From IMG/VR virus record IMGVR_UViG_3300042923_000974, positions 1-42,399 of that record: a stretch of DNA of 42,399 bases; one strand, given 5' to 3'. The notes beneath the pieces were generated by a model. The model saw only the letters and a program-made list of their open reading frames with translations, was not told the DNA's origin and made no database searches. Source of the stretch: a virus. Below are positions 1-42,399 of the stretch, in pieces (position 1 is the first letter of the stretch; every line of letters begins with the position of its first letter). A program made the translations under genes and the position numbers.

Positions 1-127
1 ACTTTGGAGTAAAAGAAGATGGCGAGTTTGTAGACCCTACTGTTTTAGTTCCCAGATTAAAAAGCATTACTGGAGAAATTGATGCAGAAAAGGAAGCAGC
101 TTGGTATGACATTGAGGGAAGAATGGA
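1..127. repeat. Terminal direct repeat, left copy (circular overlap)
   Basis: These 127 bases are identical to the last 127 bases (42273-42399). The M23 peptidase frame entering the right end continues without a break when the two copies are merged. This is the sign of a circular molecule linearised at an arbitrary point, not of true terminal repeats. The unique circle is 42,272 bp. Confidence 0.95.
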
Positions 128-365
128 ACTGGCCATGGAGAACGCAAAAGAGGATATGAAGGAAGAGTTTAAAGAAATGATGTATGACTTTTTAAGAGCT
201 CTTAGAGATGTTGTTATTGATTTAGCTGACGCTTTTACCCTTATCGGTGGTGGAGCTTTCATTATTCTAGGCGCTTGGAAGCTTAAGAATGCGAATAGAT
301 GGGTGAGTATCTTGTTTGTTTCTCGAATCTTAATCAAAGCCTTACTGGGAGGTTATATAGGATGA
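1..365 (+). CDS. M23 peptidase / membrane protein, C-terminal part (continues from 41969 across the join)
   Basis: Codons run in frame from base 3 and are the continuation of the gene starting at 41969; the merged protein has 222 residues. This part begins at the end of the LytM zinc site (FGV after HLH). It then has a charged helical linker rich in Glu and Lys and two hydrophobic stretches near the C-terminus, around LADAFTLIGGGAFIILGAW and WVSILFVSRILIKALLGG. The gene ends in an ATGA overlap with the ATPase gene at 362, so the two are probably translationally coupled. An internal ATG at 123 could be mistaken for a start, but the frame is open upstream and carries catalytic-domain sequence. 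Confidence 0.9.
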   Translation, partial: FGVKEDGEFVDPTVLVPRLKSITGEIDAEKEAAWYDIEGRMELAMENAKEDMKEEFKEMMYDFLRALRDVVIDLADAFTLIGGGAFIILGAWKLKNANRWVSILFVSRILIKALLGGYIG

Positions 366-2716
366 AATTTAGCCAGGTAGTAAGTGTTATTAAGCCACAA
401 TATGTTTTCCTCAAGCTTAAACCTAACAATTCAATCCGCAATCAATCCACTCATTTCATAGCAAGAACTATCTCAACTCTATATAGAAGTGTATTTCAGT
501 CCATTGTAGCTGAGGAAAAGAAAATTATTAAATTACTAGGTAGGGAGTTTTTGATCGGTACGAAATACAATTTTCAAGTCCAGGGGAAAATCGGTTATTA
601 CATTTATATTGAGAAGAAAAAAATTGAGTTTTATTTCATCATTCCTAAGCAATACCTAAGCATCATCCAGGAGAAAATCAGTGATGTTTGGAAGAACATC
701 ACAATCGAAGAGATTACAGATTTACCTCAGTTTGGAGAAAAGGCTACAAAGTATCAATTAGTGTATGAAAAAGAGGATGCCTTGAGTTTAAAAGTGGATA
801 GAAGAGACAATGATCTACTCCAATCCAACTTAAATATCGTGGATGTATTAGAGGAAGGCGATAAAGTGGCAATTTTTTATAACTTTATGCCAGCTTCTCA
901 AGAAAGTTTTAAATACAGCTATAAAACGACATTGGAGAAAGTGAAAAAAGGCTTACCAGTTGACAGAAATAAGATGGGGTTAGCGTATCTTTTCAAATTA
1001 AGTGTGGGAATAATCGATGGTCTAGTGAAAGATGTGAGTGAAATCCTAGCAGGTGATAAGAAAAAGGAAGGTGAGACATGGCTCGAAACGATTGTCGATA
1101 GGCTTCAAGGTGGTCAGAAACAATTAAAAGAAGGTACAGAAAATAAGATTAAAAATCAAATCGTTCCTACTCAAATCGTAATTTTAAGTGAAAGTGCTAG
1201 TAAATTACGTGAGCTGAATAACAGTCGCAGTTTGGCAAATAGCTTTGATGTGATAAGTGAAGATAACAAATTAGTACCTAAAAGAATGGGCGGTAAGCTG
1301 AATTTATTTAAGTATAATTTAGGTGCTGAAGTGAACAAAGTAAGTGACCTGGAGTGTCAAAACTTTTTATCCCTAGCTGGGAGAGAGTTATTAGAAAGGC
1401 ACAACTTTATTGAAAAAGTTGAAACTCAAGAAACCGAAGTACCAGAGGACTTAAGAAAAGGCGTACTGAGGATTGGTGAAAACATTTTTAGAGGCATGAA
1501 ACAACAGGCTTATCTATCTACAGATAAAGAGTATAAACAATTAACCTTAGTGTTAATTGGTCCTACACGCGCTGGAAAGTCTACTCTTATTGGTAATCTT
1601 TCTTATGATGCCATCAAAAACGGTGAGTGTGTAGTGCTTTTCGATTTCATAAAAAATTGTGAGCTAAGCGATGAAGTAGCTGCATTGTTTCCGCCAGATA
1701 AAAGACTATTCATTGAATGTCATGATTTTAAATCGTTACAGGGTTTAGGATATAACGAAATACCTTCAAGCGCAGATCCATTCATTCGGTACGCTAATGC
1801 AAAGAAAATGACTACCCAGTTAATCACTCTGGTTGATTCAATCAATTCCGATGATACCACGTTTTCCGCACGTATGAATCGTTATATGACTAGCGCAGCT
1901 CTAACTGTTTTCCTTAGTGGAGGAAACGTAAAAGAAGTTTTTTCCGTATTACAAAATCACAACAAAAGAGCTGATTATATCAGCAAAGTTCCTTCCAGTC
2001 AGTTAGAAAACATGGAAGAGTACATTGGGTATCTTAGAGAGCTGGATGAAAAAGACAAAAAAGGTGTCATTACTGGCACTAAATTGCACCTAGTAGAGGG
2101 TATTATTAGCCGTTTAAACAGGTTGAAAGATAACCCTTATATGGAACTAATGTTGAAAAAAGGAACTGAAAATAATATTAACTTAGTAGAAGAAGTACAA
2201 AAGAATCAGCTTATTTGCATAAAGATGCCTGAAACCATGTTCTCGACAGATAATGAACGCGATGTGTATACAACCTACTGGATGACCAAAATCTATTTAG
2301 CGCTTCAAGTGAGAAGTGAAAACATTCCTGATCGGAATGACCAAAGAAAAGTAAACTTAATCATCGATGAATTATATCAAGTACAAAACACAGAACAGCT
2401 TTTAAAACAACGTTTGTCACGTATGGCTAAGTTTGGGATGAAGCCTATTATTAGCTGTCATTACTTGAATCAAATTAAACATATTCGTGATGAACTGCGC
2501 TCAGCTAATGCTAGTTATATGCTAATCAGTGGATGTGATAAAGAGAACTTCAAAGAGTTGAAAAGTGAATTATATCCATTTACCGAAGAGGATCTGTTGA
2601 AGCTTCCTCGATATCACTCTATGAATTTAATTAAGTGTAAGGACGGCTATGGAAAGTTCATTACAAAATTACCTGCTCCAGTAGACCAAATGGAGGTCAT
2701 GGCATGCGAAAACTAA
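362..2716 (+). CDS. VirD4/VirB4/HerA-like DNA-pump ATPase
   Basis: A 784-residue P-loop ATPase. Walker A is GPTRAGKST at residues 400-408. Walker B is LIIDELYQ with D669 and E670. It is followed by a segment (LSRMAKFGMKPIISCHYLNQI) typical of the sensor region of FtsK/HerA/VirD4/VirB4 motors. The first 390 residues form a separate domain with no motif I can name; residues about 200-235 are partly hydrophobic (MGLAYLFKLSVGII) but are not a convincing membrane segment. The chosen ATG overlaps the stop of the M23 gene (ATGA) and has GGAGG upstream; an in-frame start at 299 lacks a good site and would overlap more. Family knowledge: these hexamers move DNA or protein through membranes in conjugation, type IV secretion and segregation. 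Placing it in one subfamily (coupling protein, VirB4 or FtsK-like) is not possible by eye. Confidence 0.85.
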   Translation: MKFSQVVSVIKPQYVFLKLKPNNSIRNQSTHFIARTISTLYRSVFQSIVAEEKKIIKLLGREFLIGTKYNFQVQGKIGYYIYIEKKKIEFYFIIPKQYLSIIQEKISDVWKNITIEEITDLPQFGEKATKYQLVYEKEDALSLKVDRRDNDLLQSNLNIVDVLEEGDKVAIFYNFMPASQESFKYSYKTTLEKVKKGLPVDRNKMGLAYLFKLSVGIIDGLVKDVSEILAGDKKKEGETWLETIVDRLQGGQKQLKEGTENKIKNQIVPTQIVILSESASKLRELNNSRSLANSFDVISEDNKLVPKRMGGKLNLFKYNLGAEVNKVSDLECQNFLSLAGRELLERHNFIEKVETQETEVPEDLRKGVLRIGENIFRGMKQQAYLSTDKEYKQLTLVLIGPTRAGKSTLIGNLSYDAIKNGECVVLFDFIKNCELSDEVAALFPPDKRLFIECHDFKSLQGLGYNEIPSSADPFIRYANAKKMTTQLITLVDSINSDDTTFSARMNRYMTSAALTVFLSGGNVKEVFSVLQNHNKRADYISKVPSSQLENMEEYIGYLRELDEKDKKGVITGTKLHLVEGIISRLNRLKDNPYMELMLKKGTENNINLVEEVQKNQLICIKMPETMFSTDNERDVYTTYWMTKIYLALQVRSENIPDRNDQRKVNLIIDELYQVQNTEQLLKQRLSRMAKFGMKPIISCHYLNQIKHIRDELRSANASYMLISGCDKENFKELKSELYPFTEEDLLKLPRYHSMNLIKCKDGYGKFITKLPAPVDQMEVMACEN

Positions 2717-3110: not shown

Positions 3111-3132
3111 AAAAAGACTTTAAAAAAAGTCT
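3111..3132 (-). terminator. Intrinsic terminator of the integrase gene
   Basis: Read on the minus strand, AGACTTT and AAAGTCT form a 7-bp stem around TTTT, followed by a T-rich tail. The integrase stop codon lies inside the stem-loop. Confidence 0.65.
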
Positions 3133-4547
3133 ATGGTATCAATGCCTATTCTCTTTTTATCCTCATAAACAACCTTCATTTCTTTAATAAACCTCTGAAC
3201 AAAATTCTTCTTTTCTTCTTTCGTAAGCTTATACCAGTTATCTCCAATGTTTTTCAAAATAGCATATAGCTCACTTTTATCTACTGGAATTTCCTCTACT
3301 GGAGCTTCTATGATTTGAGCCTTTATTTCCTCTTCTAAACTTCGTTCTTCAGACATTCTTTTATCAAAGTCTTCATCGGAAAGTTTATCGTTCGCCCAGG
3401 CATACTGCCATTTCTTTTTCCGGCTCTCTAATTTCTCAAGTTCTTTTTTCAAATCTGCCTGTTGGTCCTCATCTTTTTTCTCATTGATTTCATGCTCACC
3501 TGTTGCTGCCACTTCATCGAAAGGGAAGTCAAAGAGTTGAAGGTGTTCCACCAATGCTTTTTCAATTCTTGTTTCTGAAAAGGCTCCAGATTGAGTACAT
3601 ATGCCCGACGCTAAGTGGTGGCACCTATAGTATCGATAAACCTTTTTCTCACCTTTTGCTGACACTCGATGGCTCCCACCGCCTACCATTGATCTTCCAC
3701 AATTTCTGCATTTGATTACACCTGAGAAGATGTAGGTACTAGCAACCTGTTTAGGAGATAGCCCTCTTCTATTATCTATTGTTGTTTGTACCATTTCAAA
3801 AGATGCTTGATCAATAATAGGAGGGACTGCATTTTCTGTGAGCTCATCTCCCCAGCGAATGGTCCCAGTATAGATTGGGTTTTTTAATATTTTCATTAAA
3901 GGGTTATCAGTCCATAGATTACCTGATTTGGTTAATATGTTACGTTCGTTTAAATACTGGCAGATACGACTTGCACCTAACCCTTTAAGATAGAGATCCA
4001 CAATTAATCGGATGGTTTTAGCCTCATCTTCCTTAATGGTAAGTGTTCCTTTAGAGTGGTCAAGGTCATATCCCATAGGGCGAATATTATTTGCATACTT
4101 TCCTTGCCTTACCTTTTCAGCCATCCCCATTTTGACGCGTTCTCCTAGGTTCTCACGTTCCCACTGAGCCATAGCTGCAACCATAGTAATAAACATTCTA
4201 CCCATTGCAGTTGTCGTTTCGAATACCTCTGTAACTGATTTGAATTTACAATCATGTTTATCAAAAGTTTGAAGCATCTTATATAAATCTAGGACGGATC
4301 TTGTTAAACGGTCGAGACGATAAACGAGAACACAATCAATTTTTCCTTCTTTTATATCCGTTATCATTCTTTGTAATTCTGGTCGATTCATATCCTTTGC
4401 AGATATCCCCTCATCTACATATAAATCAACCACTTGCCAATCCTGAGCTATACAAAACGCTTTTAATCTTTGTTTTTGTGCAGAGATAGAATAGCCCTCT
4501 TTTGCTTGCTCCTCTGTAGAAACACGAATGTATATTGCAACCTTCAT
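3120..4547 (-). CDS. int: Large serine recombinase (phage integrase)
   Basis: A 475-residue site-specific recombinase. The N-terminal resolvase domain starts YIRVSTEEQ with nucleophile S10, and has the conserved YRLDRLTR (76-83) and the QWERE helix (128-132). The recombinase domain spans about 155-260. The zinc ribbon uses C280, C283, C309 and C317. A long charged coiled coil spans about 370-420. Length and domain order match integrases of Bacillus and Listeria phages. The enzyme joins attP to a host attB; excision would need a recombination directionality factor, which I cannot identify here. The gene follows the repressor gene by 16 nt on the same strand, so the two are probably co-transcribed, which would favour lysogeny. 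GAGG lies shortly before the ATG. Confidence 0.96.
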   Translation of the reverse strand: MKVAIYIRVSTEEQAKEGYSISAQKQRLKAFCIAQDWQVVDLYVDEGISAKDMNRPELQRMITDIKEGKIDCVLVYRLDRLTRSVLDLYKMLQTFDKHDCKFKSVTEVFETTTAMGRMFITMVAAMAQWERENLGERVKMGMAEKVRQGKYANNIRPMGYDLDHSKGTLTIKEDEAKTIRLIVDLYLKGLGASRICQYLNERNILTKSGNLWTDNPLMKILKNPIYTGTIRWGDELTENAVPPIIDQASFEMVQTTIDNRRGLSPKQVASTYIFSGVIKCRNCGRSMVGGGSHRVSAKGEKKVYRYYRCHHLASGICTQSGAFSETRIEKALVEHLQLFDFPFDEVAATGEHEINEKKDEDQQADLKKELEKLESRKKKWQYAWANDKLSDEDFDKRMSEERSLEEEIKAQIIEAPVEEIPVDKSELYAILKNIGDNWYKLTKEEKKNFVQRFIKEMKVVYEDKKRIGIDTIDFF

Positions 4548-32316: not shown

Positions 32317-34665
32317 ATGGGGAAATATCGCTCTCTAGGTACATGGATTAACCGTGTTTTTAGAAATGATTTGAACTCTAATTTTGATGATGTGGATCAA
32401 GATATAAAATATATACAAACCCAATTGGACCAAGTTGTCATTGAGGGTGATTCCTCTGTTGAAGCAGCTCAAGCTAGAGTGAATAAAAGTGGCACTGTTT
32501 ATGCAACTTTAAAAGAGCGCTTGGACGATGAAAATGAGAACATTACGTCATCATTGGCGGAAATGTCGTCAGAGAAAGCAGATAAAACAGAGGTTAATTC
32601 ACTTGCTACCTCTAAGGCTGAAAAGTCTTACGTTGATACCAATTTAACTGCATTAGACACAAAAATTAATAGTCAAGCGAGTGGTTCTCCAAAGGGTGTC
32701 TACGCTACGTTATCAGCGTTACAAACTGCTTTTCCTACTGGTAATACAAACACTTATGTTGTTGCCGCTGATGGATATTCGTATTATTGGAACGGCTCTA
32801 TTTGGAATCAATTGACACAATATCAAAGCACTGGATTAGCTAATAAATCTGTAACACCCGAAAAAGCTACGTTTTTTAGCGCAGAAACCAAAAATATTTA
32901 TAGTGGTGACATGTATATAAGTCAATTATTTTTAGACTATTCGTCAGCAGAAAGTAGAACAACAACAGGAATTTCAACAGGTGTAGCTTCTGTAGTCATT
33001 CCGCTTGAAGTTGGTGTGACTTATTTAATTAAGAAAAGTTCTGCGCTACGTTTTCGAGTAGCTGTTTTTGATCAATCTCCAACAGCAGCAGGTATTAATG
33101 CAGTTACAACATTGACAAATGAAATCATTGCGCCATCCGTTACAGAAGTTACGTATACAGCTCAAAGTAGTGGTTTATATATAGTTGTGTATTCGTCTAA
33201 CAATGGTACGTTTTATCCAATTGATATTTTAGTGGATTCTTACACATTATCAACAGATATTTCGGTTGATGAAGCGAGTATTAAACCAAGAAGTATTAGC
33301 GTGGAGAAAACTGATTTTCTAGTGAACGCAATTGATTTATTAGACGGCACTTATGTAAATCGGTACATTGACACCACAACTAATAAGATTGCCGACAATG
33401 CTACCACTAGATCAGTCATTGCATCTATACTTCCAAATGTGGAATATACAATTAAGACATTTGGAACTCATAACCGTTTCGTTGTGGGGTTGACCAATTC
33501 TTTATTAACTGACACAGTAATTTCTACTTTTCCTGTAAAGAAAACAACAACTGCTGGTAATGAGGAGATCACATTCACAAACAGTGGTGGATTTTCTTAT
33601 TGCATGATTTATATTTCAAACGCTTCGCATCAACCTGAAATTACGATGACAAAAGGTGCTTATCCAGTACAACCAAACGAGCAACTTTACACGTTGAATG
33701 GTAAAAAAATAGTTATGGAAAACGACCTAACTGTAAGTGTTGATGATATTAGTAAAACTATAAAAAAGTATAACGGTCATTATTGGGAACCTGAAATGCA
33801 ACCTGATGCACTTGGCGGTGTGAACAGTTTTGCGAATGTGGCATGGACGAGTGAACAGTTTATTAATAACGTATACGAACCACTTAGAGCAAAATATCCA
33901 TATTACATCACAAGAGAAAACATAGGTAAGGATGCTAGTGGACTTTATGATATGTGGATGTATATTTTCGAACCTAAGTTTTATACCCAAACTGCATTTT
34001 TACAAGCAGGAGCACACGCTTGGGAAGAAGAAGGGTATCTTGGTTTAGGTAGGTTCATGCAAATCCTTTGCGAGGAACATGAAACACATCGAGATTTAAG
34101 TTATTTACGATGGAATGTCCGTTTTGTTGTGATTCCTTTAATAAATGTATGGGGAGTTTCAGCCCAAACAGAAGGGCAAAGAACATCTAATAACATTAAC
34201 GGTGTAAACTTAAATAGAGATACAGTTAATAAATCCCAACAAGAAACATTAAATGTTATTGCTCAAATAGATCGATTTGCCGATGATATCAGCTACTTCC
34301 TAGATTTCCACACAACAGGTAGACAAACCACTTGGGGCGATTACATGTACGAATATTATAATGCTGCCCCAAATGCCCGTGTATCCCTTAGAACCATACA
34401 TTATTTAAGCGATAAGAATATTAGAGAGGGTATGAATCGAGAACCTGATTTGCATGAAGTAAGGTATCTTGACAATGATTCAAGGGTAGGGAAATGGGTA
34501 GAATATCCGTGGCATATTCATGGGATTCCAACAGCTACAGTTGAACATTCGGATATGATTTTTGATAACGCAGAACATACTTCAAAGGCTATAACGGCCA
34601 CGGTTGAGTGTTTCGGAAATCATATCATTCAACACGCTTTAAAGAAGTTTAAAACAGTCGATTAA
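32317..34665 (+). CDS. Tail fibre/spike with C-terminal M14-type metallopeptidase
   Basis: A 782-residue protein. The N-terminal about 110 residues (tail anchor and coiled coil: NSNFDDVDQDIKYIQTQLDQV) are followed by a short beta domain (YVVAADGYSYYWNGSIWNQL, about 145-165) and a long beta-rich middle. The C-terminal peptidase has zinc ligands H567 and E570 (AHAWE), H665 (DFHTTG) and catalytic E743 (TVEHSD), with NNINGVNLNRD between them: the full M14 carboxypeptidase set. M14 members in bacilli can cut gamma-D-glutamyl bonds of peptidoglycan stems or polyglutamate capsule, so a wall- or capsule-penetrating enzyme is a reasonable inference. AAGGAGG upstream. Confidence 0.88.
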   Translation: MGKYRSLGTWINRVFRNDLNSNFDDVDQDIKYIQTQLDQVVIEGDSSVEAAQARVNKSGTVYATLKERLDDENENITSSLAEMSSEKADKTEVNSLATSKAEKSYVDTNLTALDTKINSQASGSPKGVYATLSALQTAFPTGNTNTYVVAADGYSYYWNGSIWNQLTQYQSTGLANKSVTPEKATFFSAETKNIYSGDMYISQLFLDYSSAESRTTTGISTGVASVVIPLEVGVTYLIKKSSALRFRVAVFDQSPTAAGINAVTTLTNEIIAPSVTEVTYTAQSSGLYIVVYSSNNGTFYPIDILVDSYTLSTDISVDEASIKPRSISVEKTDFLVNAIDLLDGTYVNRYIDTTTNKIADNATTRSVIASILPNVEYTIKTFGTHNRFVVGLTNSLLTDTVISTFPVKKTTTAGNEEITFTNSGGFSYCMIYISNASHQPEITMTKGAYPVQPNEQLYTLNGKKIVMENDLTVSVDDISKTIKKYNGHYWEPEMQPDALGGVNSFANVAWTSEQFINNVYEPLRAKYPYYITRENIGKDASGLYDMWMYIFEPKFYTQTAFLQAGAHAWEEEGYLGLGRFMQILCEEHETHRDLSYLRWNVRFVVIPLINVWGVSAQTEGQRTSNNINGVNLNRDTVNKSQQETLNVIAQIDRFADDISYFLDFHTTGRQTTWGDYMYEYYNAAPNARVSLRTIHYLSDKNIREGMNREPDLHEVRYLDNDSRVGKWVEYPWHIHGIPTATVEHSDMIFDNAEHTSKAITATVECFGNHIIQHALKKFKTVD

Positions 34666-39286: not shown

Positions 39287-39652
39287 ATGTTCGATGTCCA
39301 TTTGCTTGAATTATTACCTAAACCAATTCAATATGCCGTTCTTTTTTATTTTCTTGTTAAGGTCTTAGATTTTATTACAGGGTTGCTGAAAACTTGGAAA
39401 GGAGTAAAAAAGTACGAATCACGGATAATGCGAGATGGTATCATACGATGGATTGGTGAGCTTGTAGGTATTGTCTTTGTATTCGCCATAGATTTATTTC
39501 TTGGCCTTAATTATTACTTAACAGGTTTTACTTTAGCCTTATTCATTTACAAAGAAGGCGGCAGCATTATGGAAAACTTAAAAGCTATCGATGTAGATTT
39601 ACCAGGAGAAGTAAAAGCAAAGTTTAAAGCATTTGATAAGGGTGATAAATAA
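39287..39652 (+). CDS. Holin (phage_holin_4/Cph1 type)
   Basis: A 121-residue membrane protein with three hydrophobic segments: IQYAVLFYFLVKVLDFITGL, WIGELVGIVFVFAIDLFLGL and YLTGFTLALFIYKEGG, then the ENLKAIDVDLPGEVKAKF tail typical of this holin family. It makes the membrane holes that start lysis. AAGGGGA upstream. Its stop overlaps the amidase ATG. Confidence 0.92.
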   Translation: MFDVHLLELLPKPIQYAVLFYFLVKVLDFITGLLKTWKGVKKYESRIMRDGIIRWIGELVGIVFVFAIDLFLGLNYYLTGFTLALFIYKEGGSIMENLKAIDVDLPGEVKAKFKAFDKGDK

Positions 39653-40350
39653 TGACTACATTCGGTTTTGATGCTGGCCATGCAGGATTTGGTGTCACGC
39701 CAGGCAAACGTACTATCGACGGAACCATGTACGAATGGGATTTTAATAATGCAGTGGCTCTGTTGGTTGAGGAAAAACTAAAAGCTTATGAAGATACTAA
39801 AATAGTACGCCTTGATGATAGAACAGGTAAAAGAGATATCCCCCTAGCTGAAAGAGTTGCAAAGGCTAAACGTGAAGAGGTAGATGCAGTTGTCTCTATT
39901 CATGCAAATGCCTATGGGGATGACTGGAATGAAGCAAACGGAATCGAGACTTTTATCTCTGAGGACCGTATGCCTTTCACAGAATTAGAGTTAGCATCAC
40001 ACATCCAGAATCATATGATCAGAGAGACTGGGCGTAGAAACAGAGGGGTCAAACGAGGCAATCTTTATATGACAAAGGTGTCTAATATGATTCCTTCAGT
40101 TATTGTTGAGTGCGGCTTCATGACCAATAAAGAAGAGGCTGCCTTGCTAAAGACTGCTTCATATCGAGAGAAGTGTGCTCGGGGGATTTTGAACGGCTTA
40201 GTGGAACAGTATAAATTAAAGCCTAAGAAACAATCTAAAAAAGAACTAGCGTACATTAAAACGGGGTCCATGCCCTTAGATGTTGCTGAAAAGCGCGCCA
40301 TTGAAATAGAGAAAAAATACGGTGGTATTGTACACGTGATGAAGGTATAA
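39652..40350 (+). CDS. N-acetylmuramoyl-L-alanine amidase (endolysin)
   Basis: A 232-residue Amidase_3 enzyme. Zinc and catalytic residues are H10 (DAGHAG), E28 (YEWDF), H84 (SIHANA) and E153 (VECGFM). The C-terminal about 50 residues (KQSKKELAYIKTGSMPLDVA, then KKYGGIVHVMKV) form a small cell-wall-binding (SPOR-like) domain. No signal peptide, so release is through the holin. It cuts the bond between MurNAc and the stem peptide. Confidence 0.95.
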   Translation: MTTFGFDAGHAGFGVTPGKRTIDGTMYEWDFNNAVALLVEEKLKAYEDTKIVRLDDRTGKRDIPLAERVAKAKREEVDAVVSIHANAYGDDWNEANGIETFISEDRMPFTELELASHIQNHMIRETGRRNRGVKRGNLYMTKVSNMIPSVIVECGFMTNKEEAALLKTASYREKCARGILNGLVEQYKLKPKKQSKKELAYIKTGSMPLDVAEKRAIEIEKKYGGIVHVMKV

Positions 40351-41069: not shown

Positions 41070-41197
41070 AAATTTATTTTTCCTTTATTGTTAGTGGACA
41101 CGCATTTTTTTAGGTGTATGCCCATAAGATGTATTACAAAGGTCGCACCACTGATATACGGTATGACAGAGGTACTACCGTATGACCGATGTAATAC
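41070..41197. promoter_or_regulatory. Repeat-rich control region upstream of the RHH gene
   Basis: Contains GTATTAC (41131-41137) and its inverse GTAATAC (41191-41197), GTATGAC twice (41161-41167, 41180-41186), and the inverted pair TACGGTA/TACCGTA around 41157-41183. AAATTTATTTTTC (41070-41082) and GACACGCATTTTTT (41097-41110) recur downstream of the RHH gene, the second inverted. Ribbon-helix-helix proteins bind such short repeats, so operators or a centromere-like site are likely. Confidence 0.6.
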
Positions 41198-41217
41198 GAA
41201 AAGGAGGACCCCCAAAA

Positions 41218-41439
41218 ATGCGAAAAGTTCAGCCTGTCTCTTTTAGTCTTTCGGATCCATTCGAAACTGCGCTTTTTAACCACGCTCAAAGTAATGGTGC
41301 TTTTTCAAAATATATTAAACGCTTAATTCAACGTGATATGGAGCGCAGGACACCAGTCGTACCAACAAAAAAAGCGCCTGACCAGCCAAATGTAATACAT
41401 GGCGGAAAGAACGCTTTTAATGGTTTTAAATTAGAGTAG
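41218..41439 (+). CDS. Ribbon-helix-helix DNA-binding protein
   Basis: A 73-residue protein. The strand VQPVSFSLSD and helices FETALFNHAQSNG and FSKYIKRLIQRDMERR form an RHH domain like those of plasmid and phage CopG/ParR-type proteins. A basic tail with GGKNAFNGF follows. ATG 41218 follows AAAGGAGG; the upstream ATG at 41182 lies in the repeat region. It is probably an autoregulator of the accessory operon; a partition role is conceivable, but no partition ATPase of ParA or ParM type is present. Confidence 0.8.
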   Translation: MRKVQPVSFSLSDPFETALFNHAQSNGAFSKYIKRLIQRDMERRTPVVPTKKAPDQPNVIHGGKNAFNGFKLE

Positions 41440-41549: not shown

Positions 41550-41963
41550 ATGAGAAAAACGGAATCCATGACCATTAGTGAATTTTTAAGAAAAGAGCCT
41601 GAATCGTTTTCTACAAAAGTTAAGAAGCATTTAGAAAAGTACGGAATCGTTTATAGAATTGTAGGTGCTACGGTTGTGATTTATTTTACTGGAGGCTTTG
41701 ATTTTGCTTTTGCTGCAGGTGGCGGATATACGGATGGCCTTATTGATAAAGAAGCGCGAATTATTTACAACGATTTAACCGATATAGGGAGATGGTTAAT
41801 CGTAGGAAGAGGCGGATGGGAAATTATCACCAAAGTGATCAGTCAGGATATTGAAGGAGTTAAAAAGAATTTCATTGGATATTTAGTCGCCTATGTTCTA
41901 TTGATGGCTTTCCCTCACTTAATGGATAAGGTTGATACTATTTTTGACCGATTTGGGGCGTGA
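41550..41963 (+). CDS. Small membrane protein with VirB2/TrbC pilin-like layout
   Basis: A 137-residue protein. A charged N-terminus (1-32) is followed by a hydrophobic segment (34-55, VYRIVGATVVIYFTGGF) ending in AFA-AGGG, a likely signal-peptidase site after A55. The rest (about 80 residues) has two hydrophobic helices (about 78-97 and 108-125) separated by a short charged loop (SQDIEGVKKN). A long leader, an A-x-A site and a two-helix mature protein are the layout of type IV secretion pilins. No sequence motif proves it; a holin- or channel-like protein is the alternative. GGAGGT upstream; its stop is 5 nt before the M23 gene. Confidence 0.6.
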   Translation: MRKTESMTISEFLRKEPESFSTKVKKHLEKYGIVYRIVGATVVIYFTGGFDFAFAAGGGYTDGLIDKEARIIYNDLTDIGRWLIVGRGGWEIITKVISQDIEGVKKNFIGYLVAYVLLMAFPHLMDKVDTIFDRFGA

Positions 41964-41968
41964 GGATT

Positions 41969-42399
41969 ATGAAATTTAGAGTAAGCAGCGCTTATGGTGC
42001 GTTGGAGGAAGTACGGGAGGGGAAGCACACTGGAGTTGATATAGCTTTACCAGAAGGGACGGAGCTAAGAAGTATTGTAGAGGGGTTTGTTACCAATGTA
42101 TATGATGGCTCAGGGAATATCGGTAAAGGTGTGAAAATTATGGGTAACGATGACAGAGAATACATCTATGGTCACATGGATGAGGTAGACGTCTCTGTTG
42201 GTCAAAAAGTGAATTTTGGAGATATGTTAGGAGAAAGTGGAAACACGGGGAACTCAACTGGACCACATTTGCACTTTGGAGTAAAAGAAGATGGCGAGTT
42301 TGTAGACCCTACTGTTTTAGTTCCCAGATTAAAAAGCATTACTGGAGAAATTGATGCAGAAAAGGAAGCAGCTTGGTATGACATTGAGGGAAGAATGGA
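41969..42399 (+). CDS. M23 peptidase / membrane protein, N-terminal part (continues at 128-365)
   Basis: The first 143 codons of a 222-residue protein that crosses the circular join. LytM-type zinc endopeptidase residues are all present: H20 and D24 (HTGVD), H69 (YIYGHM), and H100 and H102 (GPHLHFG). The enzyme would cut peptide cross-links of the wall. There is no N-terminal signal peptide, whereas the C-terminal part (1-365 in this window) has two hydrophobic segments that could hold it in the membrane. GAGG is only 3 nt before the ATG, so translation is probably coupled to the pilin-like gene. Type IV secretion systems of Gram-positive bacteria need such a wall hydrolase. A phage entry or release role is an alternative. 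Confidence 0.9.
   Translation, partial: MKFRVSSAYGALEEVREGKHTGVDIALPEGTELRSIVEGFVTNVYDGSGNIGKGVKIMGNDDREYIYGHMDEVDVSVGQKVNFGDMLGESGNTGNSTGPHLHFGVKEDGEFVDPTVLVPRLKSITGEIDAEKEAAWYDIEGRM
42273..42399. repeat. Terminal direct repeat, right copy (circular overlap)
   Basis: Identical to bases 1-127. It should be counted once when the molecule is closed. Confidence 0.95.

Follow-up and report, generated by a model that had tools for sequence, protein, structure and literature searches.

A candidate precursor of a VirB2-type subunit encoded beside a wall peptidase and a VirB4-like ATPase in a temperate tailed phage

P137, a protein of 137 amino acids encoded at 41550..41963 (+ strand) of the window (the whole stretch of viral DNA analyzed here, 42,399 nucleotides, IMG/VR record IMGVR_UViG_3300042923_000974), is probably the precursor form of a pilin-like subunit of the VirB2 type, which would belong to a minimal type IV secretion-like machine encoded by a temperate tailed phage. 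The computed evidence comprises the gene and its conserved cassette, a leader homologous to that of TrbC-like phage proteins, the prediction of a prepilin-like two-helix hairpin with a signal peptide, and the VirB4-type fold of the neighboring ATPase. There is good support for P137 working in the manner of a VirB2-type subunit, in a minimal machine driven by a VirB4-type ATPase, whereas its membership of the VirB2/TrbC family is not supported.

Conservation and predicted precursor architecture of P137

The P137 gene starts with ATG, with the Shine-Dalgarno sequence GGAGG located 9 bases upstream. Used as the sole query, P137 gave no match in phages, plasmids, IMG/VR, or GTDB contigs, and for this reason its relatives were gathered with the ATPase as bait. 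This yielded 48 loci that could be used, drawn from IMG/VR and GTDB genomes, partly duplicates and about 40 of them distinct, belonging to Bacillus, Neobacillus, Sutcliffiella, Sporosarcina, Paenibacillus, and Paraclostridium. Of these related phage or prophage loci, 47 have a match to the P137 profile upstream of the ATPase; the match is strong in most of them and weak in the clostridial ones (1e-4 to 1e-5, in a small database). Moreover, closely related pairs of homologues have dN/dS values of about 0.05-0.18, so P137 is under purifying selection, and the open reading frame proposed in the initial annotation is a real gene. The family is uncommon: among 397 genomes of the order to which Neobacillus sp. 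DY30 belongs, 5 have it. A Pfam scan of 42 close homologues revealed no shared family, and a PDB sequence search with alignments gave no match. Also, a 76-residue homologue lacking the leader is encoded in one locus (L060:5259-5489); it matches only the mature hairpin and is comparable to the unprocessed CedA1 pilins.

The leader of P137 (residues 1-55; 41550..41714, + strand) consists of a charged stretch (residues 1-36) followed by a hydrophobic segment (residues 37-55, Kyte-Doolittle value of 1.62) that ends in A-F-A at positions 53-55, as the initial annotation had described. Its conserved motif is K-x-E-S-M-T-I-x-E-F-L, then the charged stretch, the hydrophobic core, and A-F-A. All eight of the closest relatives keep Ala-55, and the leader ends in small-x-Ala across the family, a count that is partly circular because the position was picked by rule. 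Since the A-x-A site is conserved, P137 would be cut by signal peptidase I after Ala-55, leaving a predicted mature part of 82 residues (56-137; 41715..41960, + strand).

The AlphaFold2 model of P137, built on 42 homologues, shows the leader helix plus two helices (64-97 and 101-136) that form a hairpin with a tight turn. The mean pLDDT is 75.7, with values of about 80-90 for the hairpin, and the pTM is 0.43; confidence is low at residues 47-61, the zone of the expected cleavage. The model thus agrees with the mature two-helix hairpin of about 80 residues claimed before, and with the hairpin of about 70-80 residues of VirB2/TrbC pilins, although this fold is generic and non-specific. The earlier description of both helices as hydrophobic stands for helix 2 (107-125, Kyte-Doolittle value of 1.57) but not for helix 1, which is charged and weakly hydrophobic (0.75, with a family mean of 1.11).

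The cassette and its phage

The first and last 127 bp of the window (1-127 and 42273-42399) are an identical direct repeat; the virus genome is circular or circularly permuted, with 42272 bp, and the cassette therefore crosses the contig ends. The cassette runs from a ribbon-helix-helix (RHH)-like protein through P137 and an M23 peptidase with a C-terminal membrane hairpin to a 784-residue ATPase. In its surroundings the gene order is holin, amidase, phrog_32788, HTH (- strand), the RHH-like gene at 41182, P137, M23, ATPase, and serine integrase (- strand). Thus, the wall hydrolase and the ATPase do follow P137 directly, as had been noted, once the contig ends are joined. The holin and amidase endolysin genes (39287..40350, + strand) match Pfam families at 2.1e-17 and 4e-37, and the serine integrase directly beyond the cassette (3120..4547, - strand) matches Pfam Resolvase at 1e-45. 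The virus is a tailed phage, as seen from its genes for a terminase, portal, major head, and tape measure protein and for a primase-helicase and DNA polymerase; it is temperate and infects Gram-positive bacteria. Among the four cassette genes and the neighboring genes examined, no VirB6, VirB8, or VirD4 was recognized, and no relaxase was recognized in the cassette, so that a complete type IV secretion system (T4SS) is absent from it. Elsewhere in the genome, a 782-residue tail-region protein (32317-34665) matches the zinc carboxypeptidase phrog_4722 (9.5e-34).

The first cassette gene (41182..41439, + strand) matches phrog_8966 at 3.3e-15; it has no Pfam match, and its RHH label was read from its own sequence and its relatives. 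An RHH-like gene is located upstream in 12 of 42 loci. Around the RHH-like gene of the window lie a 19-bp tandem repeat (41157-41194) and an inverted repeat (41131-41197; GTATTACA...TGTAATAC, also at 41389 and 41512); these repeats are possible operators of an RHH or HTH regulator. ParM-like actin genes are found near the cassette in several loci (L006, L017, L027, L028, L037, L048, L051, and L060), and the RHH-like gene of the window may be a left-over ParR-type partner.

The M23 protein and the VirB4-like ATPase

The M23 protein is encoded on the + strand across the circular junction, by 41969..42272 joined to 1..365, giving 223 residues in all. Its first part (41969..42399, ending with the terminal repeat) matches Pfam Peptidase_M23 at 5e-26, and the remainder (128..365) holds a two-helix hairpin at about 210-359. 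The turn of this hairpin is rich in lysine and arginine (KLKNANR), which, according to the positive-inside rule, would place both of its ends outside the membrane and would suit a wall-facing peptidase on either end. The C-terminal hairpin is the constant part of the protein among relatives. For example, the M23 domain precedes the hairpin in the window and follows it in L064, in L050 M23 is a separate gene downstream of the ATPase, and other relatives have only a bare hairpin protein of 76-113 residues. Both the hairpin domain and the bare proteins correspond in size and position to VirB3, a small protein with two transmembrane segments encoded beside virB4, although neither matches the VirB3 profile.

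The ATPase (362..2716, + strand; phrog_5156, 2.7e-86) has a Walker A motif GPTRAGKS (residues 400-407) and a Walker B motif IIDE (667-670), and about 390 residues devoid of membrane helices precede the Walker A motif, as in the N-terminal domain of VirB4. The best match of its model (pLDDT of 84.9) is VirB4 (PDB code: 4ag5), with a VIA Z of 27.5 and 3.4 Å over 341 residues, followed by DndH (25.5), TrwB (25.1), and HerA (24.4). Also, the top Foldseek matches are to the full-length R388 TrwK/VirB4 (E 4.9e-13), which aligns over residues 10-776, loosely (rmsd above 10 Å). These comparisons of models point to a RecA-type motor nearest in fold to VirB4, in line with the secretion-type ATPase initially suggested; VirB4-like is the best supported name for it, with HerA and VirD4 not far off. 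In conjugation, VirB4 is the ATPase partner of VirB2.

Sequence relationship to TrbC/VirB2 proteins

P137 itself does not match the Pfam TrbC model and does not reach the curated cut-off for the VirB2/TrbC family, its one signal being a sub-threshold match to T4SS_pilin (E 0.22), and none of its close family members matches TrbC. However, a distant version of the ATPase is found in the phages TP-84, PK2.1, D6E, 035JT001, BpsM-61, MRSA107, and LysYB1, where a protein with a leader and a hairpin is encoded directly before the ATPase or one gene further up. These positional homologues match Pfam TrbC/VIRB2 (PF04956) at 4.4e-6 and 7.9e-5 and T4SS_pilin at 1.5e-5 to 2.6e-5, in both cases just below the cut-off (27.3 bits for the best phage relative against PF04956, with a cut-off of 27.9). 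The ATPases linked to P137 and to these TrbC-like proteins are homologous (E 1.5e-66).

When the whole P137 family was compared with a set of six TrbC-like proteins, the profile signal was weak, and with more members added it was confined to the leader. A direct HMM cross-match was marginal in its decoy test and was set aside, the decoys containing unmarked homologues. The matter was settled by comparing the leader separately from the mature part. With hhalign, the leaders alone match with a probability of 96 and an E of 1.5e-9, and none of 200 column shuffles is as good, whereas the mature hairpins give no signal, 33 of 200 shuffles being as good. Moreover, the hairpin family of the neighboring M23 protein resembles the mature TrbC-like phage hairpin (E 1.2e-4), and none of 200 shuffles scores as well. 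By these profile comparisons, P137 shares the TrbC-like leader, and the TrbC-like hairpin that is recognizable by sequence in this phage sits in the M23 protein. It may be that the hairpins of P137 and the M23 protein are both diverged pilin-type hairpins or that the leader was re-used.

The structure comparison with VirB2/TrbC pilins advised in the initial annotation proved uninformative, as Foldseek and VIA returned only generic helical hairpins for P137, with no VirB2 among the matches listed, and the hairpin fold does not discriminate. Of the reading given there, the leader with its small-x-Ala site, the hairpin, the hydrolase, and the VirB4-type ATPase are supported, whereas a match of P137 itself to the TrbC/VirB2 model is not.

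In the Bacillus phages read, members of the TrbC-like family also occur after FtsK and Replic_Relax genes; relatives are present in 50 phage records and only two plasmids. A trio of FtsK/SpoIIIE, Replic_Relax, and TrbC-like genes is conserved in lytic and temperate Bacillus phages (L082-L089: PK5.2, 268TH008, Silence, 276BB001, MVC_VPHSA1, PM1, vB_BpsS-36, and Jayan), the same pilin-like family being paired there with a different DNA motor. Two phage records, Novomoskovsk and Bolokhovo, carry the label 'TrbC/VIRB2 family protein', read by their authors as a plasmid trait (PMC9658697).

Proposed mechanism and alternative explanations

From these elements we infer the cleavage, topology, assembly, substrate, and direction of the machine. 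P137 would be exported by Sec via its leader and cut by the host signal peptidase I, and the 82-residue hairpin would then remain in the membrane with both ends outside. The M23 protein would insert its own hairpin in the same orientation and open the wall locally; in VirB3's place beside the ATPase, it would be a VirB1/VirB3 hybrid. Finally, the VirB4-like ATPase would drive the hairpin proteins into a ring, a channel, or a short filament. DNA is the probable substrate, since every ATPase paired with the gene family in phages is of a DNA-translocase type, either VirB4/HerA or FtsK with Replic_Relax; DNA transport is thus read from the partner motors.

Mass spectrometry detected TP84_47, a relative of P137, as one of 14 proteins in purified TP-84 particles (PMC5889276), showing that a member of the family is produced and accompanies extracellular particles, whether as part of the virion or as co-purified filament or membrane. 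LC-MS of other Geobacillus phages includes no family protein among those named in the text (PMC10459684). The TP-84 result would fit a membrane channel carried by the virion, in which the pilin-like protein would be a genome-entry pore and the ATPase, an early product in lytic phages, would draw in the DNA, and in the lytic phages read the gene pair does lie near replication and recombination genes. Nonetheless, co-purified filaments or membrane would give an identical proteomic result, a Sec-export leader is odd for a virion protein, and the cassette lies between the lysis genes and the integrase in the window, TPDSL_ph2, and D6E, making an entry pore unlikely. This same moron-like position would suit a superinfection-exclusion or anti-phage complex, where a HerA/VirB4-type ATPase and membrane partners block or extrude incoming DNA; HerA-type defense ATPases are also near in fold (Z about 20), and the ATPase weakly matches PADLOC mad8 (2.7e-7). 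However, VirB4 is the better fold match and shares the N-terminal domain, P137 and the M23 domain have no PADLOC match, and lytic phages, for which exclusion would be less useful, have the cassette as well, so that such a complex seems quite unlikely.

A plasmid-maintenance remnant, in which the RHH, FtsK/Replic_Relax, and TrbC-like genes would descend from plasmid prophages, an origin suggested for related phages by the Novomoskovsk and Bolokhovo authors, would account for the upstream RHH gene, the ParM-like genes in 7 of 42 loci, and the relatives in two plasmid records. This origin is improbable, since the low dN/dS argues for a present-day function and segregation leaves the signal peptide, the wall peptidase, and the VirB4-type ATPase unexplained. 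As a small membrane protein near lysis genes, P137 might also be an ordinary holin or lysis accessory protein, the homology named beforehand as counting against a pilin. Holin identity was rejected because the phage has a separate holin (Phage_holin_4_1) and amidase, P137 and its relatives have no holin family match, and P137 is constantly paired with the ATPase; an accessory role in lysis is thus scarcely credible.

Returning to the pilin-like subunit, its gene belongs to a conserved set that also encodes a wall-cutting enzyme and a VirB4-type ATPase, and this suggests that many phages of this kind build a reduced form of the machinery for DNA transfer between cells. A bolder and doubtful extension is that a large group of Bacillota tailed phages encodes a minimal conjugation-like conduit, made of pilin-type hairpin proteins, a wall peptidase, and a VirB4- or FtsK-type motor, for passing phage DNA through the envelope, with a pilin that can travel with the virion; if true, it could serve cell-to-cell spread independent of the virion or genome uptake. 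With the pilin-like reading, dozens of phage genes labeled 'hypothetical', some of them in well-known lytic phages, would gain a proposed function, and a small, tractable gene set would become available for finding out how much the simplest VirB4-driven machine is capable of.

Comparison with known systems

Like P137, the VirB2/TrbC pilins (PF04956, PF18895) have a long leader, a signal peptidase-type site, and a two-helix hairpin of about 80 residues and are encoded shortly upstream of a VirB4-type ATPase; in contrast to them, P137 lacks a model match, has a weakly hydrophobic helix 1, and is encoded by a tailed phage of Gram-positive bacteria. The TrbC-like proteins of Bacillus and Geobacillus phages (phrog_5422; TP84_47) have a leader homologous to that of P137 and, in TP-84, D6E, and 035JT001, occupy the same slot before a homologous ATPase. 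However, their mature hairpin is not detectably related, and their partner is often FtsK plus Replic_Relax rather than the VirB4-like ATPase.

The T4SSs of Gram-positive bacteria (pCF10, pIP501, Tn916, and pCW3) share with the phage cassette a VirB1-like wall hydrolase and a VirB3 with two transmembrane segments beside VirB4, but they lack VirB2 and have VirB6, VirB8, and a coupling protein, the reverse of what is seen here (PMC12857230). VirB2 is reported to be missing from Gram-positive T4SSs except in Patescibacteria (PMC12857230), which speaks against the VirB2-type reading. A conserved leader and hairpin protein accompanied by a VirB4-type ATPase and a wall peptidase in many phages of Bacillota, one relative of which is reported in virions, would link phages to the conjugation machinery. 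A search of one literature collection found no paper on a phage-encoded T4SS of this kind. The conjugative prophage phi1207.3 was considered as a user of the system and rejected, with no profile match in the 50 kb examined.

Among known systems, archaeal DNA import by Ced/Ted, with the CedA1/TedC pilin and the CedB/TedB ATPase, is the best precedent for such a reduced set (PMC9905601). As in the phage, a minimal set of a VirB2-type pilin and a VirB4-type ATPase lies there outside classical conjugation. The Ced/Ted systems are cellular and have the polytopic CedA/TedA channel, none being recognized in the phage cassette, whereas the phage adds a wall peptidase.
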